Source: an uncultured Akkermansia sp.
GTDB lineage: Bacteria; Verrucomicrobiota; Verrucomicrobiia; Verrucomicrobiales; Akkermansiaceae
DNA: 37,512 bases
Direction of reading: 5' to 3'
Assembly (NCBI GenBank): GCA_900548895.1
Contig: URLZ01000023.1
Coordinates: 1-37,512 of the forward strand
Within the stretch, counting starts at the first letter, position 1; each line of letters starts with the position of its first letter. The position numbers and the translations under genes were made by a program. Positions 1-36,337 of this stretch are shown here, piece after piece. Under the pieces are notes generated by a model. The model was not told the origin of the DNA. It searched no databases and saw only the letters and a program-made list of their open reading frames with translations.

Positions 1-957
1 CGCTGGTCGCGCCGGAGCGTTGAGCGAGGCCGCCGTGGGCGGCAGCGCCTGTGCACCGTGCGGATGGACGACGGGAACCGGAGGAGCCGGCGGGGGCACC
101 GTGGGCAGCATGGACTGCTCTTCTGGCGTGCACACGGGGGCATGCTCGATGCTGTGCATTGGCGGAACACCCGGATGCAGCGGCGCGGTGGGATCGACAT
201 CCGGCACGAGATTGACGGCCGAGGGATTGAGCTCTGCCGCCGTGAGAGCTTCGGGCATCTCGCGCTCCGTCAGCTCCTGCGGAATGTCATCGCAGCGGTG
301 TTCCCCCTTGCCGGGGCGGGGGGAATAGGTCTCATAAAAGGCCAGAACGACCGTGTAGATCAGGAAGAAAACGCCGAGCACCGCCGGAATGATCCAACTG
401 CTGTCGCTGAGCAGGACGAGCATCTCCGGAAAGACCGGATCGTCGCTTTGCCCCCACAGCATCAAGAGATAGAGCAGCAGCTCGCTGAGCCCGTACCAGA
501 GTGCATAGCTCACGAGGCTATAAAAGGTGATGCGCAGGCGCGAGTTGCTGAAGAGCCCGCCGAGCACGGCGGCGATCGGAACGAGATAGAGCAGGGCGGG
601 ATAGTCCTGCTCCGTGGAGCTCAGGAAGCTCAGCTGTGGCAGCTCGGACAGGGGGCCGGGCAGCGTGTAGGTCGGCCCGAGGAGGGCAAGGCAGATGAGA
701 AAGACGAGCAGCGTCAGCCCCAGCGTATAGGTCATGTTCCAGATGGCCGTCACTCCGCGCAGCAGCCCCATGAGCAGAAGGATGCCGGCCGTGAGGGCGA
801 ACCAAGGCGTGCAGACGGTTGCGGTCAGATTCTCCACGAAGGTCTGCCTCAGCAGCAGGAGAAAGTCTTGCTGACAAGCGCCGCGGACGGCTGCTGCGAG
901 CAGAAGGGTGAGCAGCAGCAGGGAGACGTATTTGGCCAGAAAGAAGGCAACCTTCAT
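1..957 (-). CDS. Multi-pass membrane protein of unknown function (3' end cut off by window)
   Basis: I read this gene on the minus strand from an ATG at 957; the frame stays open for 319 codons to the window edge, so the C-terminus is missing. The product starts MKVAFFLAKYVSLLLLTLLLAA and has about five hydrophobic segments within the first 210 residues. A soluble tail rich in proline and alanine follows (PPPAPPVPVV near residue 295). I do not recognise the family. The start is supported by a promoter (TTGACA, 17 bases, TAGAAT) whose -10 box ends 9 bases before the ATG. The gene is divergent from the M50 protease at 1236. A cytoplasmic-membrane location is inferred from hydrophobicity only. 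Confidence 0.75.
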   Translation of the reverse strand, partial: MKVAFFLAKYVSLLLLTLLLAAAVRGACQQDFLLLLRQTFVENLTATVCTPWFALTAGILLLMGLLRGVTAIWNMTYTLGLTLLVFLICLALLGPTYTLPGPLSELPQLSFLSSTEQDYPALLYLVPIAAVLGGLFSNSRLRITFYSLVSYALWYGLSELLLYLLMLWGQSDDPVFPEMLVLLSDSSWIIPAVLGVFFLIYTVVLAFYETYSPRPGKGEHRCDDIPQELTEREMPEALTAAELNPSAVNLVPDVDPTAPLHPGVPPMHSIEHAPVCTPEEQSMLPTVPPPAPPVPVVHPHGAQALPPTAASLNAPARPA

Positions 958-966
958 GACGCTCGA

Positions 967-995
967 ATTCTAGGGTATGCTCCCTCCCTTGTCAA
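967..995 (-). promoter_or_regulatory. Sigma-70-like promoter for the 957-1 membrane protein
   Basis: On the minus strand the -35 box is TTGACA (990-995), the spacer is 17 bases and the -10 box is TAGAAT (967-972). Only 9 bases separate the -10 box from the ATG, so the predicted leader is about 3 bases. Confidence 0.7.
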
Positions 996-1198
996 GGGTA
1001 AAACGCCTTGCGGAGCGTTTTGCCGACAGCGCTTGCGCGGGGGCAGACCGTGGCTCGAGCAATGGTCCGAGCAAGGCTCTTTCGGAGGTCCGGGCGACGG
1101 TTTGTTCGGCGCCTCACTCGGCCATTTTTCCCCTGGGAGCATGGGCGCCGCATCGTTGCTCCTGCTCGCTTGCCCTCGCGCCGCGACGTTGAACGCGC
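996..1198. other. Divergent intergenic stretch, no gene seen
   Basis: This is the middle of the 278-base gap between two divergent starts. The two flanking promoters sit at its edges. I see no convincing coding frame or RNA gene in it. Open frames crossing it lack plausible protein composition. Confidence 0.5.
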
Positions 1199-1227
1199 TT
1201 GCCTTTCGACGTGAAATCAAGTAGAGT
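1199..1227 (+). promoter_or_regulatory. Sigma-70-like promoter of the M50 protease gene
   Basis: The -35 box is TTGCCT (1199-1204), the spacer is 17 bases and the -10 box is TAGAGT (1222-1227). The start codon at 1236 lies 8 bases after the -10 box, so the transcript should be nearly leaderless. Confidence 0.65.
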
Positions 1228-1235
1228 AGGGCTCG

Positions 1236-1961
1236 ATGACGCGCCTGACGATACGCTTCAGCCTCTTCCGCGTGCCGGTGTCCGTGCATCCCTCGCTCTG
1301 GGTAATGCTGCTCCTGCTCGGTGGGTTGCTGAGCGTACGCACGGCTGAAGACTTGTTGCATCTGCTGAGCTTTGTCATCATCGCCTTTCTCACGCTGCTC
1401 CTCCACGAGTTCGGACACGCGCTGACGGGCAGAGCTCTCGGCGGTGGTTGCCCGAGCGTGACGCTGGCGTGGCTCGGTGGCTTCTGCCGCAACGACGAGG
1501 CGAACCTCAGCTCGCGGGAGGATCTTGTCATGACGGCTGCCGGTCCGCTCTTCTCGCTGTTGCCGGCCGGTGTCACTCTGCTCATCCTGCTGGTGTCGAA
1601 CCTTTCGTTCGGCGGCAGCATCGATCCGGTGCTCTCCGCCGCAGCCGCGACGGTGCTTGGTCATCCTCTGGATTCCTCGCTCCTGCCCGAGGTCGCTCGA
1701 GGTGTCGCCTTCGCGGCCGAGCAAAGTCTTCAAATCCCCCTCTGGTGGGCCCTCATCAACCTGTTGCCCATTCACCCCCTCGACGGCGGCCAAATCCTGC
1801 TGCATTGCACGCGCAGCGAGCGCAGCACACGGTGTGTCAGCTTCGTGACCGCGACAACGGCCGCCATCGTCTTCCTCGTCTGCGGCTGCTGGTTTTTCGC
1901 CTTGCTGGCCGGGCTCATGGCTCTGCACCACGCCCGAGTGCGGAGGCGTCCCGCCCGCTGA
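1236..1961 (+). CDS. M50-family site-2-type membrane metalloprotease
   Basis: This 241-residue integral membrane protein carries the zinc motif HEFGH at residues 57-61 inside a hydrophobic helix. A second motif, NLLPIHPLDGG, lies at about 175-185 and its Asp183 is the expected third metal ligand. Both are hallmarks of the S2P/SpoIVFB (M50) intramembrane proteases. The N-terminal segment resembles the rhomboid-free SpoIVFB-like subgroup, with no PDZ domain and no CBS domain, so it is a minimal form. The substrate cannot be told from sequence; relatives cleave membrane-bound transcription factors or signal-peptide remnants. The gene is monocistronic, with a promoter ending 8 bases before the ATG and a 282-base gap downstream. 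Confidence 0.85.
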   Translation: MTRLTIRFSLFRVPVSVHPSLWVMLLLLGGLLSVRTAEDLLHLLSFVIIAFLTLLLHEFGHALTGRALGGGCPSVTLAWLGGFCRNDEANLSSREDLVMTAAGPLFSLLPAGVTLLILLVSNLSFGGSIDPVLSAAAATVLGHPLDSSLLPEVARGVAFAAEQSLQIPLWWALINLLPIHPLDGGQILLHCTRSERSTRCVSFVTATTAAIVFLVCGCWFFALLAGLMALHHARVRRRPAR

Positions 1962-2205
1962 AACGCACTGGCGGCAGATCTCTGAAACAGACCCCGTATA
2001 GACGTCAAGGCGCGTGCGATCAGATTCATCCTGATTCATCCCGTAAGCTGCGTTCGCAGGCTCGCACGAGCCACGCCAATCCGATGGGGCCGACAGCTGG
2101 CTCGCACCCATAGGGAAGTCCCCTGAAAGAGAATTTTACAACTTCGCATAATATATGTAATGCAAAATCGAGAAGTTCAGAAACAGAACGTGTCAGACTT
2201 TCATC
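1962..2205. other. Intergenic region before the Gld-type ABC cluster
   Basis: No gene is apparent here. Positions 2133-2165 are AT-rich compared with the surroundings and contain TTTACA and TAATAT-like words, but the spacing fits no good promoter. An in-frame extension of the ABC ATPase back to 2160 reads through this stretch. I reject it because the peptide matches no ABC N-terminus and the promoter lies inside it. Confidence 0.5.
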
Positions 2206-2233
2206 TTGCCATAGCGCAAAGCCGTGGTAAGAT
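2206..2233 (+). promoter_or_regulatory. Promoter of the Gld-type ABC cluster
   Basis: The -35 box is TTGCCA (2206-2211), the spacer is 16 bases and the -10 box is TAAGAT (2228-2233). The ATG at 2244 is 10 bases downstream. This fixes the start at 2244 and predicts a leader of about 4 bases. Confidence 0.65.
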
Positions 2234-2243
2234 AGTCCTGCGT

Positions 2244-3185
2244 ATGAGTATGGTAACCGCAGAGCATTTGCACAAGGTGTTCGGACGCTTTGTGGCCGTG
2301 TGGGATGCAAGCTTCAGCATCGAGAAAGGCGAAATCGTGGGCTTTCTCGGGCCGAACGGCGCCGGCAAAACCACGACGATGAAAATGCTCACCGGTTTCA
2401 TGCCGCCGAATGCCGGAACGGCGAGCATCGCCGGCTACGACATCCTCGACAACCCGCTGGAGGCGCGCCGCCACATCGGCTACATGCCCGAGAACGTGCC
2501 GCTCTACGACGACATGCGTGTCTACGAGTACCTCGATTACCGCGCGCGACTCAAAGGCATCATCGGTTCCTCCGTGCGCGAACAGATCGGCCTCGTCATC
2601 GAGCGCTGCGGGCTTGAGCCCAAGCGCCGCAACATGATCAACACGCTCTCCAAGGGCTACCGCCAGCGCGTCGGCCTCGCCGATGCCCTGCTCGGCAACC
2701 CCGACTTGCTCATTCTCGACGAGCCCACTAACGGCTTGGATCCGAACCAGATCCGCCAGATCCGCGAGCTCATCCGCTCACTGGCCGAGGAGCACACCGT
2801 CATCCTCTCCACCCACATTCTGAGCGAAGTTGAGATGATCTGCAATAAGGTCATCATCATCGATCAAGGCAAAATCAAAGCCTCGGATACCCCCGCCAAC
2901 CTGACGGCGAACCTCCGCGCCGCCGGGCGCGTCTCCATCGAGTTCAAGGGCGATCTCGCACCCGTCGTCAAAGAGCTGGAGGCCTTCGCCCCCGTCAAGA
3001 AAGTCATCCACGAAGGTACCCTCCCCGGCGGGTGGGAGCGCCTCGTCGTTCGCGCCGAGCCAGGCACGGACACGCGAGAGAAAGCCGCAGCCATCATCAT
3101 GAAGCTCGGCTACCCCGTGCGCCACATCTACCGCCACATCCCGAGTCTGGAAGACGTGTTCGTCGAAATGACGCGGCGCGACTGA
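2244..3185 (+). CDS. ABC transporter ATP-binding protein, GldA-like
   Basis: This is a 313-residue nucleotide-binding subunit. Walker A is GPNGAGKTT at about 36-44, the signature is LSKGYRQRV near 135, and Walker B is LLILDEPTNGLD near 155-166, followed by an H-loop STHILSE. The roughly 80-residue C-terminal extension is typical of the CcmA/GldA subfamily. It is the first gene of a cluster with an ABC-2 permease, a GldG-like subunit and a DUF4340 protein, the composition seen in many Bacteroidota and Verrucomicrobiota. In flavobacteria GldA/F/G support gliding. Outside that group the substrate is unknown and I see no gliding-motor (GldK-N) genes here. I chose ATG 2244 over an upstream in-frame ATG at 2160 because of the promoter and because homology-like sequence begins there. 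Confidence 0.9.
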   Translation: MSMVTAEHLHKVFGRFVAVWDASFSIEKGEIVGFLGPNGAGKTTTMKMLTGFMPPNAGTASIAGYDILDNPLEARRHIGYMPENVPLYDDMRVYEYLDYRARLKGIIGSSVREQIGLVIERCGLEPKRRNMINTLSKGYRQRVGLADALLGNPDLLILDEPTNGLDPNQIRQIRELIRSLAEEHTVILSTHILSEVEMICNKVIIIDQGKIKASDTPANLTANLRAAGRVSIEFKGDLAPVVKELEAFAPVKKVIHEGTLPGGWERLVVRAEPGTDTREKAAAIIMKLGYPVRHIYRHIPSLEDVFVEMTRRD

Positions 3186-3322
3186 GCCCCTGCCCGATTC
3201 TCGTCGCCATGTAACACATATTATCATACGAGCATCCCAGCTTAAAGCCTCCGCCAAGCTCCTCGCATCGCGGAACCGAACAGACATCAAGTCCCCTTCT
3301 CTTCACCGACGTTTCTCTCACC

Positions 3323-4144: not shown

Positions 4145-4326
4145 GGCCGCCTCCGGCACAACCTACTGCACCCGCCCCCTCCCGCAACGCTGCTCCGCCG
4201 CTCCCGGATCCACCTCTTTCTCCCGCAACTTCGCCTCTTTCTCCTGACCCACGCGCCCTGCCTGAGCGCGCAAGCTTCACAGGACTCCTTCCCCTGCAAC
4301 CTCTTCTCCAGACTTTCCCCTCACTC

Positions 4327-5853: not shown

Positions 5854-5892
5854 GGCTCCGCCTCCCCCTCTCCTATCCTTCCTTCGTCCTTC

Positions 5893-10356: not shown

Positions 10357-10375
10357 CCCCTGATCCCCGCAAAAC

Positions 10376-16399: not shown

Positions 16400-16428
16400 T
16401 TGACAAAGATGAGGGGCCTCGCTACACT
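16400..16428 (+). promoter_or_regulatory. Promoter of the CDF transporter gene
   Basis: The -35 box is TTGACA (16400-16405), the spacer is 17 bases and the -10 box is TACACT (16423-16428). The ATG at 16436 is 7 bases past the -10 box, predicting a leader of 0-1 base. Longer in-frame starts at 16400 and 16409 lie inside the promoter and are unlikely. Confidence 0.7.
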
Positions 16429-16435
16429 CGCAGCC

Positions 16436-17830
16436 ATGGATGCTGACAAGAAAAAATCGCTCGCAGCCATCTCCTCCGTCGTCTGGAGTGCCTTGCTGAC
16501 TTTGATGAAGTTCATCGTCGGCCTCATCACCGGCTCCCTCGGTATGCTCTCCGAAGCCCTGCACAGCGGCCTCGACCTGCTCGCCGCACTGGGAACCCTC
16601 TTTGCCGTCCGCATCGCGGCTCGCCCCGCGGATGATGATCACCCCTACGGGCACGGCAAGATCGAAAACCTCACCGCCCTCGGTGAAACCCTTCTCCTGC
16701 TCGCCACAGCCGCGTGGGTCATTACCGAGGCCATCGAGCGACTGCTCAACCCGGAAAGCCTGCACGTCGAAACCTCCGTCTGGGCCTTCGTCGTCATCAT
16801 CGTCTCGCTGGTGGTGGACATCAACCGCTCGGCCATGCTGCGCCGCGTGGCGAAGGAGACCAAGAGCGCCGCGCTCGAAGCCGATGCCGCACACTTCGCC
16901 ACCGACATCTGGAGCAGCTTTGCCGTCCTCCTCGGCATCACGGGTGCCGCCATCGCCGGCATGACCGTGCAGGACAGCTGGCTGCACTGGCTGCTCATGC
17001 GCGCCGACGTCTTTGCCTCACTCATCGTCGCCCTGCTGATTCTGCACGTCTGTAAAGAGCTGGGCATGCAGGCCATCAACAACCTCATGGACAAGGCCGA
17101 CGGCGAAACCGCCGGCAAGATCCGCGAACTGATGAAAGAGCGCATGCCCGCCTACCCCCTCATCAGCCTCCGCGTGCGCGAAGTCGGCAACCGCGCCTAT
17201 GCCGACATGTGCGTCGGGGCCCCCCGAGAGCTGCATGTCGACACGGCCCACGAGATTGCTGACGCCATCGAGGCCCTGCTCTCCGGCGCCATCCCCGGCG
17301 TCGAGACCATGGTGCACATCCAGCCCATGGAGATCGAAGACCTCACCCCCAACATGCTCGTGCGGCAGATCGCTCTCGCGCATCGCTTCGGCGTGCACGG
17401 CCTCGTCCTTCACGACACCCCTGAAGGTCTCATCGTCTTCACCGACCTGGAGCTGCCGGGCGACGCCGTCATGGGCGCCTGGGCCGTCCCCATTCAGGCC
17501 TTCCGCTCCGAAGTGCGCCGGCGCCTCAATGCCGCGCGCGTCGTCGTCCACGTCGAGCCCGACGTCCGCGAGCTCAAGCACTACAGCGAGCCCCTGCCCC
17601 CGGAAGCCGAGTGGAAAGACCGCGTTCGCAAGGCCATGATCGAGCTCAGCGCTCCCCTGCCCGACGCCATCGACACCTATTGCCGGGGTGATCAGCGCCT
17701 GTGCATCGTCTCCATCCCGGCGGAGAACGCCCTCAACGTCAGCGAGAGCCACCTGCGCCTCAAGCAGCTTGAAGACAAACTGAGCCGCCTGCTGCCCAAC
17801 ACCGCGCGCTTCATCGTCGCCTACAGCTGA
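16436..17830 (+). CDS. Cation diffusion facilitator (CDF) metal exporter with enlarged C-terminus
   Basis: The 464-residue protein has six membrane helices in about residues 10-215. The two transport-site motifs are HSGLD (His43, Asp47) in helix 2 and HFATD (His153, Asp157) in helix 5. HxxxD at both is the pattern linked to zinc-transporting CDFs. DDDHPYGHGKIE at about 66-77 is the usual cytoplasmic loop. Typical members are about 300 residues with one ferredoxin-like ZT_dimer domain. Here that domain (about 215-295) is followed by some 170 extra residues, containing HDTPEGLIVFTDLELPG and VHVEPD, which look like one or two further ferredoxin-like modules. The transporter probably exports Zn2+ or a similar ion against protons. 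Confidence 0.88.
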   Translation: MDADKKKSLAAISSVVWSALLTLMKFIVGLITGSLGMLSEALHSGLDLLAALGTLFAVRIAARPADDDHPYGHGKIENLTALGETLLLLATAAWVITEAIERLLNPESLHVETSVWAFVVIIVSLVVDINRSAMLRRVAKETKSAALEADAAHFATDIWSSFAVLLGITGAAIAGMTVQDSWLHWLLMRADVFASLIVALLILHVCKELGMQAINNLMDKADGETAGKIRELMKERMPAYPLISLRVREVGNRAYADMCVGAPRELHVDTAHEIADAIEALLSGAIPGVETMVHIQPMEIEDLTPNMLVRQIALAHRFGVHGLVLHDTPEGLIVFTDLELPGDAVMGAWAVPIQAFRSEVRRRLNAARVVVHVEPDVRELKHYSEPLPPEAEWKDRVRKAMIELSAPLPDAIDTYCRGDQRLCIVSIPAENALNVSESHLRLKQLEDKLSRLLPNTARFIVAYS

Positions 17831-19406: not shown

Positions 19407-19434
19407 TTGAAACTACCCCGTTTTGTTCTATAAT
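19407..19434 (+). promoter_or_regulatory. Consensus promoter of the murC-murB/ddl/ftsQ cluster
   Basis: The -35 box is TTGAAA (19407-19412), the spacer is 16 bases and the -10 box is a perfect TATAAT (19429-19434). The ATG at 19447 lies 12 bases downstream, so the leader is predicted at about 6 bases. An in-frame TTG at 19423 would overlap the -10 box and is rejected as start. Confidence 0.8.
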
Positions 19435-19446
19435 GAGCCGCGAACT

Positions 19447-21747
19447 ATGATTGAGCAGTTACGCAAACGCCTGCTGGACCGGGAGCACCCGGTGCGCATT
19501 CACTTGATCGGAGTGGCCGGTGCCGGCATGAGCGGGCTGGCGAGAATGCTTCTTGAAATGGGGCACCATGTCAGCGGCTGTGACCGCGTGACCAGCGAAG
19601 AGACCGAGCGGCTGCAAAAAATGGGGCTTGCCTTCTCCTGCCCCCACAACCCCGACGCCGTCCGCGACGCCGAAATCGTCATCTACTCCAGCGCCATCCG
19701 CGAAGACAACGTCGCCCTCGCCGCCGCGCGGAAAAACGGCTGCCTGTGCCTGCGCCGCGCCGAATGCCTCGCCGCCATCCTCAACAGCAAAAAGGGCGTC
19801 GTCGTCGCCGGCACCCACGGCAAAACCACCACCTCTTCCCTCACGGCCCACCTGCTGCGCGAGGGGCGCCTGCGCCCCTGCCACTACGTCGGTGCCGAAA
19901 TCCCCGTGCTCGGCGCCAACGCCCACTGGAACGAGGACAGCGAATATCTCGTGGCCGAGGGCGATGAGAGCGACGGCACCCTCGTCAACTACATCCCCGA
20001 GCACAGCATCATCCTCAACATCGAAGCCGAGCACCTCGACTTCTACCGCGACCTCGACCACATCAAGTCCGTCTTTGCCCGCCTCTGCCAGCAAACGCGC
20101 GGCAAGATCTTTTACTGCAAGAACGACCCGGGCGCCAACGACGTCTGCTCCAAATATCCCAACAGCGTCTCCTACGGCTGGCAGGACGCCGACTACACCG
20201 CCACGGAACTGACCGAAAAGCGCGGCCGCAGCCTCTTCACCATCTGTTACCGCGGCGAACCCCTCGGCCGCGTCGAGCTCGGCATCCCCGGCAAACACAA
20301 CGTCCTCAACGCCCTCGCCGCAACCGCCGCCGCCCGAGAAATCGGCTGCGACTTCGCCAGCATCGCGCGCGGCCTGAGCACCTTCGCCGGCGCCCGCCGC
20401 CGCTTCGAAACCAAATACCTCTCCCGCGACTACCGCATCGTCGACGACTACGGGCACCACCCCACCGAAATCGCCGCCACCCTGCAAACAGCGCAGAGCC
20501 TGAAGCCCAAGCGCCTCATCGTCCTCTTCCAGCCGCACCGCTACACGCGCACGAAACTGCTGCGGAACGACTTCGGGCGCGTTCTGCAGAACCTCGACCG
20601 CCTCTACGTGGCCGACGTGTACCCGGCCAGCGAAATCCCCATCCCGGGCATCAGCGGGCAAACCATTGTCGATGCCGTCCACGAGCAGGGCCCCGTTCCG
20701 GCCACCTTCCTGCCCGACCTCAGCCTCGCCCACCACGTCGTCGGCAACGAACTGCGCCGAGGCGACCTCTTCCTGACGCTCGGCGCCGGCAACGTCCACC
20801 AGGCCGGCACCAAGATCGCGGCAGACCTGCGCGTCCTTGCCGAAATGCAGCAGGAATGCGGCGGGGACGTCCCCTGCCGCCTCTACGAGCCCATGAAGAA
20901 GCACACCACCATCGGCGTCGGCGGAGAAGCCCAGTACTGGATTGAGCCCGACAGCTTTGAGACGATGCAAAGCGTCGTCAACTTCTTCAAGGAGCGCAAC
21001 ATCCCCATTCACGTCGTCGGACGCGGCTCCAACCTCATCGTGCGAGAAGGCGGTCTGCGTGGCGCCGTCATCCACCCCACCGGCGGCGCCTTCGACAAGA
21101 TTGAATTGCAGGGGAACCTCATCGTCGCCGGAGCCGGCGTCAAGCTCAAGAAACTGGCCGCCTTCGCGGCTCGCCACGGCATCGCCGGCTTTGAGTGGAT
21201 GGACGGCATCCCCGGCTGCGTCGGCGGCAGCCTGCGCATGAACGCCGGCTGCATGGGCGGCGACATGTGGAGCGTCTTCCGCTCCGCGCTGGCTCTCAAC
21301 GACGAGGCCGAAATCATCGAGTTTGAGAAAGAGAGCATGCAGCCCGCGTGCTACCGCCTCATCCCCGACTTTGAGCACAACATGGTGCTGCAGGCCACCT
21401 TCGCCGGCACCCCCGGCAACCCCGCTGACATCGACGCACGCATCGAGGCCATGCGAGAGAGGCGCCGCGACTCCCAGCCGCTGGAGTCCAGCGCGGGCTG
21501 CACCTTCGTCAACCCCCCCGAAATCCCCGCCGGCAAGCTCATCGACGAGCTCGGGCTCAAGGGCTACAGCATCGGAGGAGCCCAAGTCTCCACCCGCCAC
21601 GCCAACTTCATCATCAACACCGGCAACGCCAAGGCCACCGACGTCACCGAACTCATCGACCACATCATCCACGAAGCTAAGACGCGCCGCGGCATCACCC
21701 TGCGCACCGAAGTGCGCGTCGTCGGCGACCGCGAGGCCGAGTTCTGA
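19447..21747 (+). CDS. murC-murB: Fused UDP-MurNAc--L-alanine ligase / UDP-MurNAc dehydrogenase (MurC-MurB)
   Basis: The 766-residue protein joins two consecutive cytosolic steps of peptidoglycan precursor synthesis in reverse order of action. MurC (about 1-465) shows GVAGAGMSGLA near 22-32, the ATP motif GTHGKTTTSS near 122-131, and later DDYGHHPTEIAATL. MurB begins at about Met483 with KKHTTIGVGG, then GRGSNLIVRE (FAD site) and GIPGCVGGSLRMNAG, and ends with a type II pattern (no YxxxxR insertion). The enol-protonating serine motif SAGS reads SAGC here (Cys685). A linker of about 20 residues joins the halves. The start at 19447 follows the promoter. ddl follows after 36 bases. Confidence 0.95.
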   Translation: MIEQLRKRLLDREHPVRIHLIGVAGAGMSGLARMLLEMGHHVSGCDRVTSEETERLQKMGLAFSCPHNPDAVRDAEIVIYSSAIREDNVALAAARKNGCLCLRRAECLAAILNSKKGVVVAGTHGKTTTSSLTAHLLREGRLRPCHYVGAEIPVLGANAHWNEDSEYLVAEGDESDGTLVNYIPEHSIILNIEAEHLDFYRDLDHIKSVFARLCQQTRGKIFYCKNDPGANDVCSKYPNSVSYGWQDADYTATELTEKRGRSLFTICYRGEPLGRVELGIPGKHNVLNALAATAAAREIGCDFASIARGLSTFAGARRRFETKYLSRDYRIVDDYGHHPTEIAATLQTAQSLKPKRLIVLFQPHRYTRTKLLRNDFGRVLQNLDRLYVADVYPASEIPIPGISGQTIVDAVHEQGPVPATFLPDLSLAHHVVGNELRRGDLFLTLGAGNVHQAGTKIAADLRVLAEMQQECGGDVPCRLYEPMKKHTTIGVGGEAQYWIEPDSFETMQSVVNFFKERNIPIHVVGRGSNLIVREGGLRGAVIHPTGGAFDKIELQGNLIVAGAGVKLKKLAAFAARHGIAGFEWMDGIPGCVGGSLRMNAGCMGGDMWSVFRSALALNDEAEIIEFEKESMQPACYRLIPDFEHNMVLQATFAGTPGNPADIDARIEAMRERRRDSQPLESSAGCTFVNPPEIPAGKLIDELGLKGYSIGGAQVSTRHANFIINTGNAKATDVTELIDHIIHEAKTRRGITLRTEVRVVGDREAEF

Positions 21748-26814: not shown

Positions 26815-27997
26815 GGCGATGATGAAGGATGTTGACAAAGGTCTCTTCCAGTGTGCGGCGGCGCGGCGTAAACGACACGATGGGATAAAGCGCCACCAAG
26901 CGGCGCAGTTCGGCGGCGAGCAGGGTCTCAACCGAGGGCGACGTCACAGACGCCCCATCTTCCTCGCCGGCTGCGGCCCGCGCGGCATCCGGGACACCCG
27001 GGGCGGATTCCGTCGCCGAGGCAGCTCCCCGTTCCTTGGACTCGGGAACAAAGACGGCCCGCACGCATTGGCGAGCCTGCCCGGGCAGAGAGGGCAGCGT
27101 CGAGGCGCTCTTCCAGAGCGGGCTCGCGGCCAGATCGGCCGCCAGTGCCGCCGCTCCCTCGATCAGCTCGATCACGACGGTCTGCGCAGAGCTCGCGACG
27201 CCGCTCTCCATCTCCAGCTGTTGCTGTGATCCGCTGCCGATGATGCGGCCGGCATCCATGAAGATCATCTCATCGCACATCTCTGCCAGCTCCGAGAGAA
27301 TGTGCGAGCTGATGAGCAGCGTCTTGCCCTCAGCCTTGAGCTTCTGCACCATCTGCTTGAACTCCAGACGGGCCTGGGGATCCAGCCCGGCGGCGGGCTC
27401 ATCCATCACCAGAAGATCCGGGTTGCCGATGAGCGTTCTCGCCAGACAAAGCCGCTGGCGCTGCCCCTTGGAGAGGCGATTGATGCGGCGGCTTCGCAGC
27501 TCCGTGAGGCCGCAGAACTCCAGCACGCGGTTCACCTCGCTGATGCGGCGCTCTCCCGTCAGGCGGTAGGCGCGGGCGTAATAATCGATGAAATCGCGAA
27601 TCGTTGTGTGCGGCACCGCCTCAAAGTCATCGGGCATCCAGCCGATGCGGGCAATCACCTTCTCGGGATAGCTGAGCAAATCCACACCATCGACCTCCAC
27701 GGAGCCCTCGTCGGGCAAGTCCTGTGTCGTGATGATGCGCATCGCCGTGGTCTTGCCGGCACCGTTTGCCCCGATGAGACCGACGGCACATCCGCGCCCC
27801 AGCGTGAAGCTGACGTGATCCAAGGCCTTGACGGGGCCGAAGGAGCGCACCAGCCCCGAGACGCGCAGGAAGGGTAGCTCTTCCGATGGGGAGCCTGGCG
27901 GCACCGCAGCGCTCGCCAAGTTTCCCCGCAAGGCTTGAGCTTGCTGTTCTGTCTGTTTCGTGAGAGTCATGGTATCACAGTCCGAACACAGAGGCAT
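26801..27997 (-). CDS. ABC transporter ATP-binding protein with unusual C-terminal insert
   Basis: The 398-residue ATPase has Walker A GANGAGKTT at about 76-84, signature LSKGQRQRL, Walker B LLVMDEPAAGLD and an H-loop SSHILSE. It is of the CcmA/NatA type that pairs with ABC-2 permeases. Relatives are about 240-310 residues long. This one has a 45-residue N-terminal leader and, in the C-terminal regulatory part, a low-complexity insert rich in Ala/Glu/Ser (about 325-355) before the family-typical end SFTPRRRTLEETFVNIL. The start at 27997 is chosen over an in-frame ATG at 27970 because the promoter's -10 box ends 6 bases upstream of it. Confidence 0.88.
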   Translation of the reverse strand: MPLCSDCDTMTLTKQTEQQAQALRGNLASAAVPPGSPSEELPFLRVSGLVRSFGPVKALDHVSFTLGRGCAVGLIGANGAGKTTAMRIITTQDLPDEGSVEVDGVDLLSYPEKVIARIGWMPDDFEAVPHTTIRDFIDYYARAYRLTGERRISEVNRVLEFCGLTELRSRRINRLSKGQRQRLCLARTLIGNPDLLVMDEPAAGLDPQARLEFKQMVQKLKAEGKTLLISSHILSELAEMCDEMIFMDAGRIIGSGSQQQLEMESGVASSAQTVVIELIEGAAALAADLAASPLWKSASTLPSLPGQARQCVRAVFVPESKERGAASATESAPGVPDAARAAAGEEDGASVTSPSVETLLAAELRRLVALYPIVSFTPRRRTLEETFVNILHHRHEHS

Positions 27998-28390
27998 GCG
28001 CTCATCATAAAAAAAACGGACATTGAAGTCAAGCGGCGCGAGCGGAGCGCCCGCCCCTTCTCTGTCATACCGAGATCTCTTCTCCCTCCTATCCCACGCG
28101 TGAATCTCTACCGCGCCACACTGAAGCTTGTTGATGGGAACTCATTTCGTATGGAGCAATGGACGAGCCTCCTCTCTGATACTTTTCGGAGGCGTAGCCA
28201 TGGGGATGGCGACGGACTCGGTTCAGGAGGCAGGGGCGGAGTGGTCCAAGGAGCCGCCCCTGCTGCACTTCAGGCTCTCCTCTCGGGCGTTTATTCCCAA
28301 GCAGCTCAGGCATGAGAAGCCGAGCAGGCCCTCTCGCCAGTTGGCGTTGGGCGGAGAAGGCTCCGCTCGAGAGCGGCGAGCCTTCCGAAC
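27998..28390. other. Intergenic region with promoter and hairpins, no gene seen
   Basis: The 526-base gap between the ABC ATPase start and the citrate synthase stop holds the ATPase promoter (28004-28032) and the citrate synthase terminator (28391-28423). It also holds a second hairpin at 28356-28385: a 13-bp stem with a 2-base bulge. Between about 28035 and 28350 there is no convincing coding frame. It could hide a small RNA but I see no known RNA family in it. Confidence 0.5.
28004..28032 (-). promoter_or_regulatory. Promoter of the ABC ATPase/permease operon
   Basis: On the minus strand, TTGACT (28027-28032), 17 bases, TATGAT (28004-28009), then 6 bases to the ATG at 27997. This places the expected transcription start on the A of the start codon. 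Confidence 0.75.
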
Positions 28391-29768: not shown

Positions 29769-30095
29769 TCAGCCCAGGGTGTACCAAGCGTCGTGAAGCT
29801 CGCTGAAGGACTTGAGCTCGATGTCCGAGCGAGCCTCCAGCCAGGACTTCACCGCCTGGCGCTGCACCTCATTGGTCTGCGTGGGATCCGCCGCCGTCAC
29901 AATGATCACGCAGCCCTCATCCGTCATGCTGCCCTCGCACTCGAGGCCGTTGGCCTCGATGCAGTCATTGACGAGCGACTGCAGAAACTGTCCGCACTCG
30001 GCAGACTCCACATCACCCTTGTAGTCAAAGGTGAACTCAAAGCAAAGCTCACGGAACTCGCCGACGCGGTACTTCTTTCTGAGTCTCTTTTTCAT
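29769..30095 (-). CDS. yggL: YggL-family 50S-ribosome-binding protein (DUF469)
   Basis: The 108-residue product has the same length as E. coli YggL. It begins MKKRLRKKYRVGEFRELCFEF, matching that family's RRLRKKxHxxEFQELGF start, and keeps VKSWLEAR...SELHDAW at the end. YggL is reported to bind the 50S ribosomal subunit; its exact role is unclear. I start at ATG 30095, not at an in-frame GTG/ATG further upstream (to 30134), because that part overlaps the promoter. It lies 102 bases upstream of gltA on the same strand and is divergent from umuD. Confidence 0.85.
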   Translation of the reverse strand: MKKRLRKKYRVGEFRELCFEFTFDYKGDVESAECGQFLQSLVNDCIEANGLECEGSMTDEGCVIIVTAADPTQTNEVQRQAVKSWLEARSDIELKSFSELHDAWYTLG

Positions 30096-30105
30096 AACGG
30101 CAAAA

Positions 30106-30134
30106 TGTATACTCGATTCAACGCGCTTTGTCAA
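30106..30134 (-). promoter_or_regulatory. Promoter of yggL
   Basis: On the minus strand, TTGACA (30129-30134), 17 bases, TATACA (30106-30111). The ATG at 30095 is 10 bases downstream. It shares a 108-base region back-to-back with the umuD promoter. Confidence 0.7.
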
Positions 30135-30168: not shown

Positions 30169-30197
30169 TTGCGCCGGCCGCGATTCCGTGCTACAAT
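30169..30197 (+). promoter_or_regulatory. Promoter of the umuD-like gene
   Basis: TTGCGC (30169-30174), 17 bases, TACAAT (30192-30197), then 6 bases to the ATG at 30204. I see no E. coli- or Bacillus-type LexA operator around it. Confidence 0.65.
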
Positions 30198-30203
30198 CAG
30201 CTC

Positions 30204-30614
30204 ATGAGTGAGGATCAGAACGCGCAGGGTGTTCCCTTTTTCTGCGAGGCTGTGGCCGCCGGCTTTCCGAGTCCGGCGGAGGGGGATCTGAAAGGGAGTT
30301 TGGATCTCAACGAGCTCTGCATCAGCAATCCCCCCGCCACCTACTTTGTCCGTGCGCGCGGCGAGAGCATGCGCGACGCCGGCATCAGCGACGGGGATAT
30401 CCTCATTGTTGACCGCAGCCTCGAGGCGCGCTCCGGCTCCATCGTGATCGCCTCTCTCCAAGGCGAATTCACCGTCAAAACTCTGGATCTGCGCGGCGGG
30501 CACGCCCGTCTGCTCCCGGCCAACCCGGATTATGCCCCGATTGACATCACGCCCGAACTCGGCGCCGAGTTTTTTGGCGTTGTCACCTACGTGATTCGGC
30601 GCCTGCACCACTGA
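30204..30614 (+). CDS. umuD: UmuD-like self-cleaving S24 peptidase
   Basis: The 136-residue protein aligns by eye along the whole of UmuD (139 residues). It has AAGFPSPAEGD with a likely Ala19-Gly20 cleavage site, then LDLNELCISNPPATYFV, the nucleophile Ser55 in GESM, and the general base Lys92 in GEFTVK. The 37-residue spacing between these two equals that of E. coli Ser60/Lys97. UmuD is cleaved with RecA filaments to UmuD', which pairs with UmuC to form the Pol V mutasome. No umuC is adjacent; the next gene is an acyltransferase on the other strand. An N-terminal DNA-binding domain is absent, so it is not LexA. Confidence 0.9.
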   Translation: MSEDQNAQGVPFFCEAVAAGFPSPAEGDLKGSLDLNELCISNPPATYFVRARGESMRDAGISDGDILIVDRSLEARSGSIVIASLQGEFTVKTLDLRGGHARLLPANPDYAPIDITPELGAEFFGVVTYVIRRLHH

Positions 30615-31948: not shown

Positions 31949-32125
31949 GGAGAGACAGGGGGACGTGGGGGAATCGCACAGGGCGAAAGCGCAGAGAGGC
32001 GATCGGAGAGTGCCGAAAACGGGGACAAGGGGGCGGAATCAGAGAGGGGGCGTGGGAGGCGCTGTACAGAGAGGAGGGGGGGGTGGGGGGAGCGGTAGTG
32101 CTCCCCTTCTGCAAGACTCCCGGAT
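31949..32125. other. Gap between HTH gene and acyltransferase
   Basis: No gene is seen. The stretch has strong strand asymmetry: 32030-32100 is a run rich in G on the plus strand (C on the transcribed minus-strand RNA). That could act as a C-rich leader or a Rho utilisation site. No intrinsic terminator was found. Confidence 0.4.
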
Positions 32126-32680
32126 TCATCTCTTCGAACGAATGCGAGCAGCGAGCTCCTTCGCTTTCTCGCGAGGTACGAGTCCTCTCTCACTCGGCGA
32201 GACATCTGCCGGCAGCTCGCCATCGGCAGAGCCCAGCGCTTGATCCGCTCGCGCCAATAGCTTCTCCACAAAGCGCTTCTGCTCCTCGTACCACTGGTTC
32301 GGGTCGAGGCTCCCATTCCACGGGTGAGCGGCAGATGACGAAGCCTCTCTGCCCTGCTTCGCCGCTTCTCTGGCTGCGCGTTGGGCACTGCGCTTGGAGC
32401 CCGGCTTGACACTCCCCTTCGGCCTCCCGCGCCTGCGCTCCGGCGGATCCGGCGGTTCGGCGTCCGCGAAGGCCCGCTCAAGGGCTCTCGTTGCCGTCGC
32501 GGCCCAGCCGCGCAGCGTTTTCGGAGAAATGTTGAGGTTCTTCGAGAGCTCGCGAACGATATCGGGATCAGACGAAGCGAGAATCATCGCGGCGATCTGA
32601 ATGCGATAGCCCGTCGAGCAAAAGGCGTCACCGGCTTCCCCCGGAGCGGGAAGACCGTCAAACACGGGTCGGTATTTCAT
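32126..32680 (-). CDS. Small HTH protein with AT-hook-like motif, function unknown
   Basis: This 184-residue minus-strand protein starts MKYRPVFDGL. Residues 38-61 (DPDIVRELSKNLNISPKTLRGW) fit a helix-turn-helix resembling the clamp helices of transposase or terminase small-subunit type proteins. Residues 82-90 (RRRGRPKGS) match an AT-hook core (GRP in basic context). A long Lys/Arg/Ala-rich region follows, with a second conserved-looking patch WYEEQKRFVEKLLARADQAL. It is probably a DNA-binding regulator, but I do not recognise the family. The frame stays open far upstream (to 33901), mostly antisense to nadC, which I discount. Its promoter lies 122 bases upstream. Confidence 0.7.
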   Translation of the reverse strand: MKYRPVFDGLPAPGEAGDAFCSTGYRIQIAAMILASSDPDIVRELSKNLNISPKTLRGWAATATRALERAFADAEPPDPPERRRGRPKGSVKPGSKRSAQRAAREAAKQGREASSSAAHPWNGSLDPNQWYEEQKRFVEKLLARADQALGSADGELPADVSPSERGLVPREKAKELAARIRSKR

Positions 32681-32801
32681 GATGGAGAAGGAGAGAGAAA
32701 GAAAGGAGAAAGGGAAAGGAGTTCGCCGGAGCCGCACTCGAATGTCCGCACTCGGATGAAGAGACGTCCTCGATGAGACAAGGCTGCCGCACGTGCAACT
32801 C
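32681..32801 (-). promoter_or_regulatory. About 115-base pyrimidine-rich leader of the HTH gene
   Basis: Between the predicted start of transcription near 32795 and the ATG at 32680 the transcript is untranslated. Its last 45 bases are almost all C and T (complement of 32681-32725), an unusual ribosome-approach sequence. This contrasts with the leaderless genes around it and may be a regulated leader. Confidence 0.45.
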
Positions 32802-32830
32802 ATGATAGCGGTTACGCGGACAACAATCAA
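32802..32830 (-). promoter_or_regulatory. Promoter of the HTH/AT-hook gene
   Basis: On the minus strand, TTGATT (32825-32830), 17 bases, TATCAT (32802-32807). It is the only well-formed promoter here for a protein gene that is far (121 bases) from its start codon. Confidence 0.55.
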
Positions 32831-32960
32831 GTATTTTCTGGGCCTCTCCGGTCCGGGGGCGAAGCTTTCTGAACGGTGCTCGCCGGGGCGAGCGTCGGGC
32901 GTCCGAGCTCGTCTATCAGAGGACCGCGTCTCTCGGGACGGCCCGGGGATCATTTCCGCC

Positions 32961-32989
32961 TTTACAAGCAGGGCGCGCTCCCTTATAGT
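32961..32989 (+). promoter_or_regulatory. Promoter of nadC-dprA
   Basis: TTTACA (32961-32966), 17 bases, TATAGT (32984-32989), then 6 bases to the ATG at 32996. It predicts a transcript beginning on the start codon. Confidence 0.72.
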
Positions 32990-32995
32990 GGGGGT

Positions 32996-33862
32996 ATGGA
33001 TCATTGCAAGGTTTCTGACAATATGCAGGAGCTCATCGAGCTGGCTCTCCGGGAAGATTTCGGCGACGGAGATGTGACGTCTGAGTATTTTGTGCCGGCG
33101 GATCTCTGCGCCCGCGCGCTGATGCGCCCGCGCACCAAAGGGGTGCTCTCCGGCGTCAAGGTGGCGGAGGCCGTCTTCCGCGCCGTGGATCCCACGCTGC
33201 ATATTGAGATCTGCCTGCATGACGGGGAAGAGGTGGCTCCCGGTGCCGTCGTGATGGTGATTGAGGGCAAGGCCCGCTCCATTCTGGGTGCCGAGCGCAC
33301 GGCGCTCAACTTCATCCAGCGCCTCTCCGGCGTGGCCACGATGACGCACAAGTACGTCAAGGCCATCGCCCACACCGGCTGCAAGCTGCTCGACACGCGC
33401 AAGACGACCCCGGGCTACCGACTGCTCGAGAAGGCGGCCGTGGTGCACGGCGGCGGCAACAACCACCGTATGGGCCTCTATGATCGCGCCATGGTGAAGG
33501 ACAATCACCTGATGACGGACGGCGACACGCAGCACCTTCAGGCCTGCATCCGCAAGCTCAAAGCCGACAAGCCGAACGTTGAGGTTGAGCTCGAGGCGGA
33601 CAACCTCGATCAGGTGGCGAGCTTCCTGAAGCTCGAAGGTGTCGATTACATCTTGCTCGACAACATGAGCTGCGAAGATATGCGCCGCGCCGTCGAGATG
33701 CGCGGGCCGGGTCGCAAGCCCTATTTCGAGGCCTCCGGCGGTCTGACGCTGGAGACGGCTCCGGCTGCGGCTGAGACGGGAGTGGATTTCATGAGCTTCG
33801 GCTGCCTGACGCATTCCGTGCCCTCGCTCGACCTCGGTCTCGACTTCACGGTGACCCGCTGA
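32996..33862 (+). CDS. nadC: Nicotinate-nucleotide pyrophosphorylase (quinolinate phosphoribosyltransferase)
   Basis: This 288-residue enzyme converts quinolinate and PRPP to nicotinate mononucleotide in NAD synthesis. Motifs in order are REDFGDGDVTSE, ERTALNFIQRLSGVATMT, LDTRKTTPGYR and GGGNNHRMGLYDRAMVKDNH. LDNMSCEDMRRAV and FEASGGLTLETA follow near the end, all standard for NadC. The start at 32996 (MDHCKVSDNM) is set by the promoter; a Met at 33023 is the next option. No nadA or nadB is adjacent. dprA follows after 20 bases. Confidence 0.95.
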   Translation: MDHCKVSDNMQELIELALREDFGDGDVTSEYFVPADLCARALMRPRTKGVLSGVKVAEAVFRAVDPTLHIEICLHDGEEVAPGAVVMVIEGKARSILGAERTALNFIQRLSGVATMTHKYVKAIAHTGCKLLDTRKTTPGYRLLEKAAVVHGGGNNHRMGLYDRAMVKDNHLMTDGDTQHLQACIRKLKADKPNVEVELEADNLDQVASFLKLEGVDYILLDNMSCEDMRRAVEMRGPGRKPYFEASGGLTLETAPAAAETGVDFMSFGCLTHSVPSLDLGLDFTVTR

Positions 33863-33882
33863 CGCGGGACTTTCGAAACCTG

Positions 33883-35115
33883 ATGAAGGAGCTCTCCCCA
33901 AGCGAGTCTCTGCTGGTGCTCAACCTGATTCCCGGGCTGGGCTCGGTGCGCATTCGCGCGCTGCTGGAGTGCTTCGGCTCGGCGGAGATGGTGCTGGCGG
34001 CCCCGCAGCAGCTTCTGGAGAGGGTGCCACGCATGGGCCCGAAGCTCGCCGCGGCCGTGGCCTCGTGGCAGCAGTGCACCGACTGGCAGCGCGAATGCGC
34101 CTGCGCCGCCGACTGCGGCGTGCGCATCGTCACGCTGCTCGACGAGGACTATCCGCCCGTTCTGCGGCGAATGGCCGACCCTCCCGTCGTGCTCTACGTG
34201 CGCGGAGAGTGGCGCTCCGATGACGATGAGCGGGCCGTCTCCATCGTCGGCTCGCGACAGGCCACCCCCTACGGCATGACGCAGGCTCGCCGCTTCGGCC
34301 GCGAGCTGGCGGATGCCGGAAGCTGCATCATCTCGGGCCTGGCCCGCGGCATCGACACCGCCGCCCACTGGGGAGCTCTGGATGCCGGCGGGCGCACCAT
34401 TGCCGTGCTGGGCAACGGCCTCAGCCGCATCTTTCCGCCGGAGAATGCCGAGCTGGCCAATCGCATCATCAGCGGCCACGGAGCCCTCGTCAGCGAATTC
34501 CCGATGAACATGGCCCCGAGCCGCACCAGCTTCCCCCAGCGCAACCGCATTGTCGCGGCCTGGAGCCGAGCCACCCTCGTCGTTGAAGCTCCGCAGCGCA
34601 GCGGCGCCCTGCACACCGCGAGGCTCGCCGGCGAATACGGGCGCAGCGTCTTTGCCGTGCCCGGCCCTGCCGACAGCGTTACCTCGGCCGGCTGTCACGA
34701 CCTCATCCGCGACGGGGCCATTCTCTGCTGCCGCGCATCGGAGCTGGCGGCCGATATGAACTGGGTCGCCCGCCCGGCCTCGGGGCTCGGCTCGGCCTTA
34801 CGGGCCGCATCACCACGCTCCTCCGCCTTTCGTGCCGTCGCCTCGCGAGAGGGCGCCTCCAGCGGGCTTCACCCCCACGCTCGGCGTCTCGCGGGCCAAA
34901 CAACGGAAACGGGCCCGGTGCAACCCTGCCTGATCGCTCCCGGCGACGAAGGCCGCGAGATTCTTGAGGCTGTGCGAGCCGGGCATGAAACGCTCGACCA
35001 GCTCTGCGCTGCGCTGGGGCAGCCTGCCTCAGCCTTGACACCCCTGCTGATGCAGCTAGTCATTGCGCGCAGGCTCATGCCGCAGCCTGGCGGCCGCTAC
35101 GTCGCGGTTGGTTGA
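33883..35115 (+). CDS. dprA: DNA-processing protein DprA
   Basis: The 410-residue protein protects incoming single-stranded DNA and loads RecA during natural transformation. An N-terminal helix-hairpin-helix/SAM-like region (about 1-65) is followed by the Rossmann domain: VGSRQATPYG at 122-131, SGLARGIDTAAHWGAL at 151-166, then FPQRNRIVA and SGALHTARLAGEYGRSVFAVPG. After a roughly 60-residue low-complexity linker there is a winged-helix-like DprA_WH domain (GREILEAVRAGHETLDQL...RRLMPQPGGRY). It is cotranscribed with nadC. DprA is widespread also in non-competent species, so competence is not proved. Confidence 0.93.
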   Translation: MKELSPSESLLVLNLIPGLGSVRIRALLECFGSAEMVLAAPQQLLERVPRMGPKLAAAVASWQQCTDWQRECACAADCGVRIVTLLDEDYPPVLRRMADPPVVLYVRGEWRSDDDERAVSIVGSRQATPYGMTQARRFGRELADAGSCIISGLARGIDTAAHWGALDAGGRTIAVLGNGLSRIFPPENAELANRIISGHGALVSEFPMNMAPSRTSFPQRNRIVAAWSRATLVVEAPQRSGALHTARLAGEYGRSVFAVPGPADSVTSAGCHDLIRDGAILCCRASELAADMNWVARPASGLGSALRAASPRSSAFRAVASREGASSGLHPHARRLAGQTTETGPVQPCLIAPGDEGREILEAVRAGHETLDQLCAALGQPASALTPLLMQLVIARRLMPQPGGRYVAVG

Positions 35116-35169
35116 GTCTCCTCGACCTGCGATGACGCAACGAGGATCTACTGCGGGAGGATTGCAGGC

Positions 35170-35197
35170 TTGATTCCGCCTGCCCATCTGCTACAAT
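35170..35197 (+). promoter_or_regulatory. Promoter of the uracil-DNA glycosylase gene
   Basis: TTGATT (35170-35175), 16 bases, TACAAT (35192-35197), then 6 bases to GTG at 35204. The -10 box and gap are identical to those of umuD. This supports the GTG start. Confidence 0.68.
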
Positions 35198-35203
35198 GGA
35201 AGC

Positions 35204-36337
35204 GTGCCCACCCTGCGCCAACTCCTGGTTACCTCCCTGAATCGCCTGCGCGAGACGGGGACACAGAGCCTCGCTGTCGACGACGAGGCCCGGGTCATTT
35301 TGCGTGATTGGATGCTCCGCGCGCACGAAGCGCGGCGCCGCGGGGCAGCACCGACCTCGGATTCTGCCGAGCCTGTGACCGTTCTGGCCCCGATGACGGC
35401 TCCGAGCGCCACTGCTCCCTTTGCAGCAGCGCCAGCTGCCGCGGCTCCCGCCGGTCGGCCTTCCGCAGCCGGCGGGCCCCACCCCATGGTCGAGACCATG
35501 GCACAGCCCTTGACAGAGCCCTCAAGAGGGTCTACTGCCATAAACGACGCTCCGGCGCCGAGCGACTCCCGCCAACATGGCGCGCCCTCCTCTCCGCCAC
35601 GCATTCGCCCCGAGGAGCCCTGTCTGGAGTGTAGCGAAGCCCAAGCCGAGACGCCGAAATTCCCCGCGCCCGACACCGAGCGGCAGAGCCCGCCACACCG
35701 CGATGTCCCCGTTCCCCAAACCGTTGAGGAGAAGCTCGCGTACCTGCGCGAGCGCGCGGCTCACTGGGCAGCGGTGAAGCGCCTCGGCAGCCTGCGGGAC
35801 ATCATGGTCTTCGCCACCGGCAACCCGCACGCGCGCCTCATGCTCGTCGGCGAAGCCCCCGGCCATGACGAGGAAGAGCAACGCGAGCCCTTTGTGGGCC
35901 CCGCCGGGCGAAAGCTCAACGACATCCTCCGCGCCATGGGTTTGCAGCGCGCGGACGTCTACATCTCGAACATCTGCAAATACCGCCCCTCGACCGGGCC
36001 CCGACAGGGCACGGGCAACCGACCGCCGGATGAACGCGAAATCGCGGCCTGCCTGCCCATCATCCTCGCCGAGATTCGCGCCATTCGCCCCGCCTGCATC
36101 GTCTGCCTCGGCGGAACGGCCGCCAAGGGCTTGCTCGGAAGCGCCGGCAGTGTCTCCTCGCTGCGCGGCCACTGGCAGGAGTGTCAGGGTGTCCCCGTGC
36201 GCGTCACCTACCACCCGAGCTACCTGCTGCGCAACGAGTCTCGCTCCGCGCGCCGCGCCGTGTGGGAGGACATGTTGGCCGTCATGGTCAAGCTCGGCAT
36301 GCCCATCAGCGAGCGCCAGCAACGTTACTTTCTGTAA
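35204..36337 (+). CDS. Uracil-DNA glycosylase family 4/5-like protein lacking most Fe-S ligands
   Basis: The 377-residue protein starts with GTG. Residues 1-45 are helical and 46-170 are Pro/Ala-rich and probably disordered. The glycosylase domain fills about 175-370. Motif A is VGEAPGHDEEEQREPFVGPAG (215 on), the uracil-binding Asn is in SNICKYRP near 256, and the His motif is TYHPSYLLRN near 335. Family 4 enzymes hold a [4Fe-4S] cluster with four cysteines. Here the CxxC before GEAPG is absent, the third position is Tyr260 (Cys258 is two residues off), and only the last (Cys283 in IAACLPI) is kept. A CLEC pair exists at 140-143 but some 75 residues upstream of motif A. It likely removes uracil from DNA. 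A Sel1 gene follows after 6 bases. Confidence 0.85.
   Translation: MPTLRQLLVTSLNRLRETGTQSLAVDDEARVILRDWMLRAHEARRRGAAPTSDSAEPVTVLAPMTAPSATAPFAAAPAAAAPAGRPSAAGGPHPMVETMAQPLTEPSRGSTAINDAPAPSDSRQHGAPSSPPRIRPEEPCLECSEAQAETPKFPAPDTERQSPPHRDVPVPQTVEEKLAYLRERAAHWAAVKRLGSLRDIMVFATGNPHARLMLVGEAPGHDEEEQREPFVGPAGRKLNDILRAMGLQRADVYISNICKYRPSTGPRQGTGNRPPDEREIAACLPIILAEIRAIRPACIVCLGGTAAKGLLGSAGSVSSLRGHWQECQGVPVRVTYHPSYLLRNESRSARRAVWEDMLAVMVKLGMPISERQQRYFL

Follow-up and report, generated by a model that had tools for sequence, protein, structure and literature searches.

Ten start-adjacent promoters in the window

The window, which is the whole analysed stretch of 37,512 nucleotides (nt; contig URLZ01000023.1 of assembly GCA_900548895.1), comes from an uncultured Akkermansia sp. 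Protein comparison places it close to Candidatus Akkermansia intestinigallinarum. Its murC-murB fusion protein (19447–21747) is 91% identical to that of this species and mostly 78–86% identical to those of other gut Akkermansia metagenome-assembled genomes near the top of the match list. Its citrate synthase and nadC product are 98% and 92% identical to those of the Candidatus A. intestinigallinarum genome (G004), respectively. Ten protein genes of the window carry a promoter whose -10 box ends 6–12 nt before the start codon, and this distance is called the gap here. The -35 and -10 hexamers, the spacers (16 or 17 nt) and the gaps to the start codon were checked by script. The ten promoters are listed as coordinates, strand, gene, -35 box, spacer, -10 box and gap.

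958..995, minus strand: promoter of the membrane-protein gene starting at 957; TTGACA, 17, TAGAAT, gap 9; predicted leader 3 nt
1199..1235, plus strand: promoter of the M50 protease gene 1236–1961; TTGCCT, 17, TAGAGT, gap 8; predicted leader 1 nt
2206..2243, plus strand: promoter of the gldA-like ABC ATPase gene 2244–3185; TTGCCA, 16, TAAGAT, gap 10; predicted leader 4 nt
16400..16435, plus strand: promoter of the CDF transporter gene 16436–17830; TTGACA, 17, TACACT, gap 7; predicted leaderless, +1 being the A of ATG
19407..19446, plus strand: promoter of the murC-murB fusion gene 19447–21747; TTGAAA, 16, TATAAT, gap 12; predicted leader 5 nt
27998..28032, minus strand: promoter of the ABC ATPase gene starting at 27997; TTGACT, 17, TATGAT, gap 6; predicted leaderless
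30096..30134, minus strand: promoter of the yggL-like gene starting at 30095; TTGACA, 17, TATACA, gap 10; predicted leader 3 nt
30169..30203, plus strand: promoter of the umuD-like gene 30204–30614; TTGCGC, 17, TACAAT, gap 6; predicted leaderless
32961..32995, plus strand: promoter of nadC 32996–33862; TTTACA, 17, TATAGT, gap 6; predicted leaderless
35170..35203, plus strand: promoter of the uracil-DNA-glycosylase-type (udg) gene 35204–36337, start GTG; TTGATT, 16, TACAAT, gap 6; predicted leaderless

All ten were present with the spacers and the gaps given in the original prediction (9, 8, 10, 7, 12, 6, 10, 6, 6 and 6 nt). Its TTGnnn-like -35 box describes nine promoters and fails for nadC (TTTACA), and its TAnnnT-like -10 box also describes nine and fails for yggL (TATACA). 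Every one of the ten has both boxes at a spacing of about 17 nt and is thus of the sigma70 type. Transcription usually starts 7–8 nt downstream of the -10 box. All ten genes have a pyrimidine-purine (YR) step whose purine lies 7 or 8 nt downstream of the -10 box, and leaders of 0–5 nt are predicted from it. Further YR steps lie nearby in gldA and other window genes. The predicted +1 falls on the start codon itself in five genes, namely the ABC ATPase gene, umuD, nadC and udg with a gap of 6 and the CDF gene with a gap of 7 and CA at -1/+1. The other five (M50, membrane protein, yggL, gldA and murC-murB) are near-leaderless, with predicted leaders of 1–5 nt. The claim of leaderless or near-leaderless mRNAs is therefore kept, with +1 no more than about 5 nt away from the start codon, and its strict form applies to half of the genes. 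A passage of PMC10783764 defines, for archaea, a 5' untranslated region below 8 nt as leaderless in the wide sense, and all ten predicted leaders (3, 1, 4, 0, 5, 0, 3, 0, 0 and 0 nt) belong to this class. GGAG, GAGG or AGGA was found at -20 to -4 in none of the ten promoter-adjacent starts, which are thus without a Shine-Dalgarno (SD) motif.

Comparison with chance

Promoters were scored on both strands by a sigma70 weight matrix with a cut at a score of 9 or more, against 28 window starts taken from our own list rather than from a curated annotation. The score was reached at gap 6–12 by 9 of the 28 starts. In contrast, 300 dinucleotide shuffles of the same upstream DNA gave 0.19 such starts on average and never more than 2. 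The tenth promoter, that of umuD, scored 7.1 because its -35 box (TTGCGC) is weak. Seven of the nine best promoter-like sites of the window, both strands included, are start-adjacent (6–12 nt before a listed start). The other two are ordinary ones, placed upstream of tRNA-Met and of an open reading frame (ORF) starting at 32680.

It could be argued that short, AT-rich intergenic regions bring promoters close to starts anyway, and promoter-like sites do gather in the intergenic DNA of any genome. However, the shuffles of the same DNA reach at most 2 of 28 starts against the 9 observed. In our gene list, murC-murB, nadC and the ABC ATPase gene are each preceded by over 300 nt without another gene, and the promoter still abuts the start. 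The same pipeline finds no such gene among 143 of E. coli, and the footprints in orthologs described below also contradict the argument. Chance or compactness is therefore a practically negligible explanation. The earlier statement that chance is unlikely for unrelated genes on both strands was borne out by the shuffles and by the conservation of most of the promoters in the genus sample.

Conservation in orthologs

Orthologs were sought in 59 genomes from the larger genus, that of G004, and the best loci, up to 30 per gene, were read rather than all. The resulting counts come from related species and are not independent, and the scans mostly covered 50 nt upstream, so that gaps above about 21 were not fully scorable. 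For nadC, 30 of the 54 matching genomes were used, together with 10 others from more distant Akkermansia. A promoter with a score of 9 or more precedes all of the 30 closest orthologs, with gap 6 in 19 and gap 7 in 11, and the base at -1 is C or T in 30/30. Among the window and these orthologs, the mean pairwise identity of the -35 box is 0.97 in the gap-6 group and 0.85 in the gap-7 group. The values for the -10 box are 0.77 and 0.82, respectively, with TAnnnT in 31/31. The 17-nt spacer reaches only 0.39–0.43. Conserved boxes around a drifted spacer are a promoter footprint. The -35 box is likewise conserved in the orthologs of gldA and yggL.

The other genes gave the following results at the same score. 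All 27 yggL orthologs found (a duplicate place counted once) have a gap of 9–11, and gldA has a gap of 10–12 in 29/30, 24 of these at 11. The CDF promoter lies at gap 6–12 in 24/30 orthologs. The udg promoter lies at gap 6–7 in 19/30, where base -1 is C or T in 19/19; two of four more distant udg loci were readable, with gaps of 6 and 12. The murC-murB promoter appears at gap 10–15 in 36 of 47 Akkermansia loci and in 0 of the 32 loci read outside Akkermansia. These counts come from the 79 of 80 loci read in a 50-nt scan, which misses gap 27; a separate reading of 76 of the 80 loci, all but L022, L064, L071 and L072, gave three with a promoter at gap 27 (L013, L015 and L024). Control genes of the same clade had a start-adjacent promoter in 1/30 (citrate synthase), 1/47 (ddl, gap 8) and 0/42 loci (ftsQ), and three further ddl loci had one at gaps 0–1. 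For rmlB, another control gene, none of the loci was readable. Taken over the genus sample, the predicted promoters are conserved for most, not all, of the ten genes.

Some side observations were made in these loci. ACC stands directly before the start codon in 16 of the 27 yggL orthologs and would be the entire 3-nt leader there. Seen by eye, many species have a CGCGC-like stretch between TATAAT and the murC-murB start despite the varying gap, and it occurs twice in the three loci with gap 27. In nine of the ten more distant Akkermansia (L413–L422), the 50 nt before nadC contain no promoter that reaches a score of 9, and by eye nadC may closely follow an upstream gene. Gain or loss of the promoter may accompany operon structure there.

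Start codons and Shine-Dalgarno motifs

The identities over codons 2–12 at positions 1, 2 and 3 are 0.80, 0.82 and 0.50 for nadC, 0.83, 0.88 and 0.55 for gldA, and 0.95, 0.99 and 0.59 for yggL, respectively. Because the orthologs differ mainly at third positions, the codons after the proposed ATG are translated. The alignments thus show that the proposed start codons are correct for nadC, gldA and yggL, the three genes examined. If the true starts were further downstream, the mRNAs would have ordinary leaders and the promoters would be adjacent only in appearance. A codon-usage predictor did choose later starts for nadC (33023), gldA (2277), the ABC ATPase gene (27850) and udg (35774). Against this stand the third-position variation immediately after the ATG of the three genes and, for udg, separate matches to its first 45–70 residues in many of the listed genomes. 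From these four genes, downstream starts are very improbable.

The SD 4-mers are scarce before the predicted starts of the window (0/25) and of its relatives A. intestinigallinarum (11/139), A. muciniphila (25/227) and A. glycaniphila (5/73), which amounts to 0–11%. The corresponding values are 49% (70/143) in E. coli and 40% in a sample of the phylum. Of 23 Verrucomicrobiota 16S loci, 22 were readable, and all of these keep CACCTCC at the 3' end. They include at least four Akkermansia loci and none from the species of the window.

Frequency in Akkermansia and beyond

An annotation-free test, in which strong promoters were taken and start codons were then counted by offset, showed a peak of ATG or GTG opening an ORF at offsets 6–7. 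Of 502 promoters, 16 and 18 fell at these two offsets, where the usual number per offset was about 5, and the peak was diluted in A. muciniphila. This test was replaced by a gene-anchored gap scan, which took into account, for each predicted gene, all candidate starts with ATG or GTG and used the other gaps as control. The scan was carried out with A. muciniphila (340 kb), A. intestinigallinarum (222 kb) and A. glycaniphila (180 kb).

When the window is left out, 59 of the 439 distinct genes of these relatives have a promoter at gap 6–12, namely 25/139 in A. intestinigallinarum, 27/227 in A. muciniphila and 7/73 in A. glycaniphila. Five control ranges, each seven gaps wide as well, contain 20, 31, 24, 14 and 15 genes. 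When gene-gap counts are used, in which one gene can count twice, gaps 0–5 gave 2, 2, 4, 0, 0 and 1 (total 9), gaps 6–12 gave 16, 14, 5, 8, 8, 7 and 7, and gaps beyond 15 gave 3.3 per gap. The 65 counts at gaps 6–12 compare with 23 expected (P about 1e-12). The excess is about 9–10% of the 439 genes, and with the window included it is 10.6% (74 counts against 24.7). The jump comes at gap 6, the position where +1 meets the start codon, as expected from leaderless initiation. Candidate starts with a promoter at gap 6–8 in the four samples were 33 ATG, 7 GTG and 1 TTG. Leaderless and ultra-short-leader mRNAs are thus predicted for roughly a tenth of Akkermansia genes, as a widespread, minority mode. 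The window itself is richer than its relatives (8 of 25 predicted genes at gap 6–12), as would be expected of a stretch picked out by this pattern.

The gap distribution also bears on another explanation, according to which the AT-rich stretch in front of the start acts as a signal for translation, by low structure or by binding of ribosomal protein S1, and merely resembles a -10 box. In a passage of PMC5397173, a bias towards A and T around -20 to -10 of starts lacking an SD motif is indeed discussed as a Pribnow box or an S1 site. However, the nadC -35 box is conserved at a fixed spacing while the spacer drifted (0.97 versus 0.39). The hexamer is TAnnnT, which is more specific than AT-richness, and the scarcity of gaps 0–5 is followed by a peak at gap 6. 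A translation signal is therefore very improbable.

The same scan of 200 kb of E. coli gave 0/143 genes at gaps 6–12. The excess was 3.7% in 316 genes of other Verrucomicrobiales, which come from syntenic loci and are not independent. In a small phylum sample of 178 genes it was -0.9%, i.e. none. The phylum sample used 15 of 20 stretches. Four short ones (L433, L435, L436 and L442) were dropped, and so was L437, whose genome belongs to the Akkermansia genus sample. One of its 20-kb stretches (L452, genome G028) has start-adjacent promoters in 4 of 14 genes at gaps 6–12 and few SD motifs, and its genome may be another Akkermansia-like lineage.

The original prediction had regarded this initiation as the default mode of the group. 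Ten of the 28 listed window starts and the rarity of SD motifs would agree with that. However, the excess of only about 9–10% in the three relatives, its small size in other Verrucomicrobiales and its absence in the phylum sample, where SD motifs reach 40%, are against it. Moreover, a report of Cappable-seq with mouse cecum (PMC4782308) includes a passage in which 10% of the transcription start sites (TSS) of A. muciniphila, on 886 high-confidence positions, coincide with annotated starts, compared with 0.4% in E. coli, provided that its two figures are read in their printed order. A default mode is thus scarcely likely at all, and this part of the prediction was not supported.

Predicted mode of expression

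Housekeeping sigma70-type promoters with the -10 box against the start codon very probably give leaderless or near-leaderless mRNAs for about a tenth of the genes. The promoter anatomy, the statistics, the conservation and the start codons of three genes are shown by the sequences, whereas the positions of the RNA 5' ends and the way in which ribosomes start are inferred. RNA polymerase would start 7–8 nt downstream of the -10 box, on a purine after a pyrimidine. No leader would remain on the mRNAs of the CDF, ABC ATPase, umuD, nadC and glycosylase genes, and 1–5 nt would remain on those of the M50, membrane-protein, yggL, gldA and murC-murB genes. With a leader of 0–5 nt, SD pairing would be impossible. 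Translation from a 5'-terminal AUG or GUG by the 70S ribosome or by the initiation factor 2 (IF2) route is established for bacterial leaderless mRNA. Ribosomes would likewise engage the 5'-end start codon directly here. They would presumably do this in the 70S form or with fMet-tRNA and IF2 already bound, as is the case on other bacterial leaderless mRNAs. Start-adjacent promoters would operate in the same way beside many other Akkermansia genes that also have no SD motif.

Several points weigh against this reading. The 5' ends in this species are predicted from promoter sequence. The weight matrix was modelled on E. coli promoters. A Deinococcus plasmid, intended as a positive control, gave 1/35 at gaps 6–8 and no peak, and the scan may therefore miss promoters that have no -35 box. 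The ortholog sets are related to each other and the scans were short, as said above. The nadC arrangement is kept in 1 of the 10 more distant Akkermansia, and gldA has a gap of 10–11 in three of six more distant genomes. For the membrane protein, 30 loci (one without a match and one without a start) left 28 readable homologs with a protein identity of 23–37%. Gap 7–10 was found in 23 of these, 16 at gap 9, where the candidate start with the best promoter had been chosen, which favours the pattern. The promoters of M50 (score of 9 or more at gap 7–11 in 13/30 homologs, one more at gap 0) and umuD (gap 6–12 in 10/26 orthologs) are only partly conserved. That of the ABC ATPase gene at 27997 is not conserved, with a promoter at gap 5–15 in only 1 of 22 more distant homologs, whose starts are uncertain. 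In A. muciniphila, no such promoter was found before murC-murB (L037 and L038).

Possible gene-specific leader length

The gaps recur gene by gene, at 6–7 in nadC and udg, mostly 9 in the membrane-protein gene, 9 in yggL, 11 in gldA and 12–14 in murC-murB. The membrane-protein gap stays at about 9 nt although the protein has diverged to the low identities given above. This suggests that leader length is under selection, since near-leaderless genes keep their own distances over the genus sample. A stronger proposal is that Akkermansia sets the leader length for each gene (0, about 3, about 4–5 or about 5–7 nt) and that stabilising selection holds it genus-wide, which would tune translation free of SD motifs. 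We consider this proposal possible and rather doubtful. The plain alternative is that the gaps were kept by shared descent without insertions or deletions. It is weakened by the strongly drifted spacers. It is also weakened by the gaps of the CDF gene (6–12) and of murC-murB (10–15, and 27 in three loci), which vary yet stay at 6 or more. Gene-specific leader length is possibly the new part of this study.

Relation to known systems

The original prediction knew of no description as the default mode in this group. Leaderless starts as such are, however, already described there, since they were mapped in A. muciniphila by Cappable-seq, according to the passage of PMC4782308. The mapped starts resemble the window in the genus, the -35/-10 promoters, the YR step at -1/+1 and the TSS at start codons. 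They differ in that one species was studied and the TSS is exactly at the annotated start, and the passages concerned hold no gene list, conservation or near-leaderless class. The window species and A. muciniphila also differ in the nadC and murC-murB arrangements of their two clades.

In Deinococcus-Thermus, a TAnnnT box that lies only a few nt upstream of the ORF leads to leaderless mRNA for about 30% of ORFs on average, as stated in part of PMC12340547. Unlike that -10-only promoter, the Akkermansia type has a -35 box in 10/10 window promoters, conserved in nadC, gldA and yggL. Sections of PMC10783764 class Akkermansia as SD-scarce with an intact CCUCC, with 4% SD in A. glycaniphila. The rare SD 4-mers and the intact 16S CACCTCC of this study agree with those sections, in which, in contrast to our result, Akkermansia is not tied to promoter-adjacent starts. 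The conserved arrangement described here is a real trait of most of the ten genes, a minority mode and one already seen in the genus. Leaderless genes have reportedly been surveyed across bacterial genomes by means of a -10-like signal upstream of the start. A genome-wide survey of such genes in bacteria exists (PMC3160421), and a search of its main text for the terms Verrucomicrobi- and Akkermansia found neither. Our literature search, which covered open-licence papers, found no paper on conserved gene-by-gene start-adjacent promoters in Akkermansia.

A short experimental remark on A. muciniphila is thus extended to a conserved, gene-by-gene mode of expression with named targets (nadC, yggL, gldA, murC-murB and others). 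The result bears on the annotation of gene starts in Akkermansia. The design of expression constructs is concerned as well, since promoters placed next to the start should function in this genus even when a ribosome binding site is missing. Specially, the leaders of 0–7 nt, kept gene by gene, form a natural series for studying how ribosomes pick a start codon near the 5' end without an SD motif while the anti-SD sequence is intact.

Other features of the window

The two ordinary promoters among the best sites of the window are as follows. TTGACT, 17, TATAAT at 37242 on the plus strand is the second-best promoter of the window and stands 37 nt ahead of tRNA-Met (37280–37354). A strong TTGATT, 17, TATCAT at 32802 on the minus strand stands 121 nt upstream of the ORF start at 32680, as a leadered gene among leaderless ones. 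A tRNA with a four-base anticodon was called by ARAGORN at 28143–28244 on the plus strand and is probably a false call.

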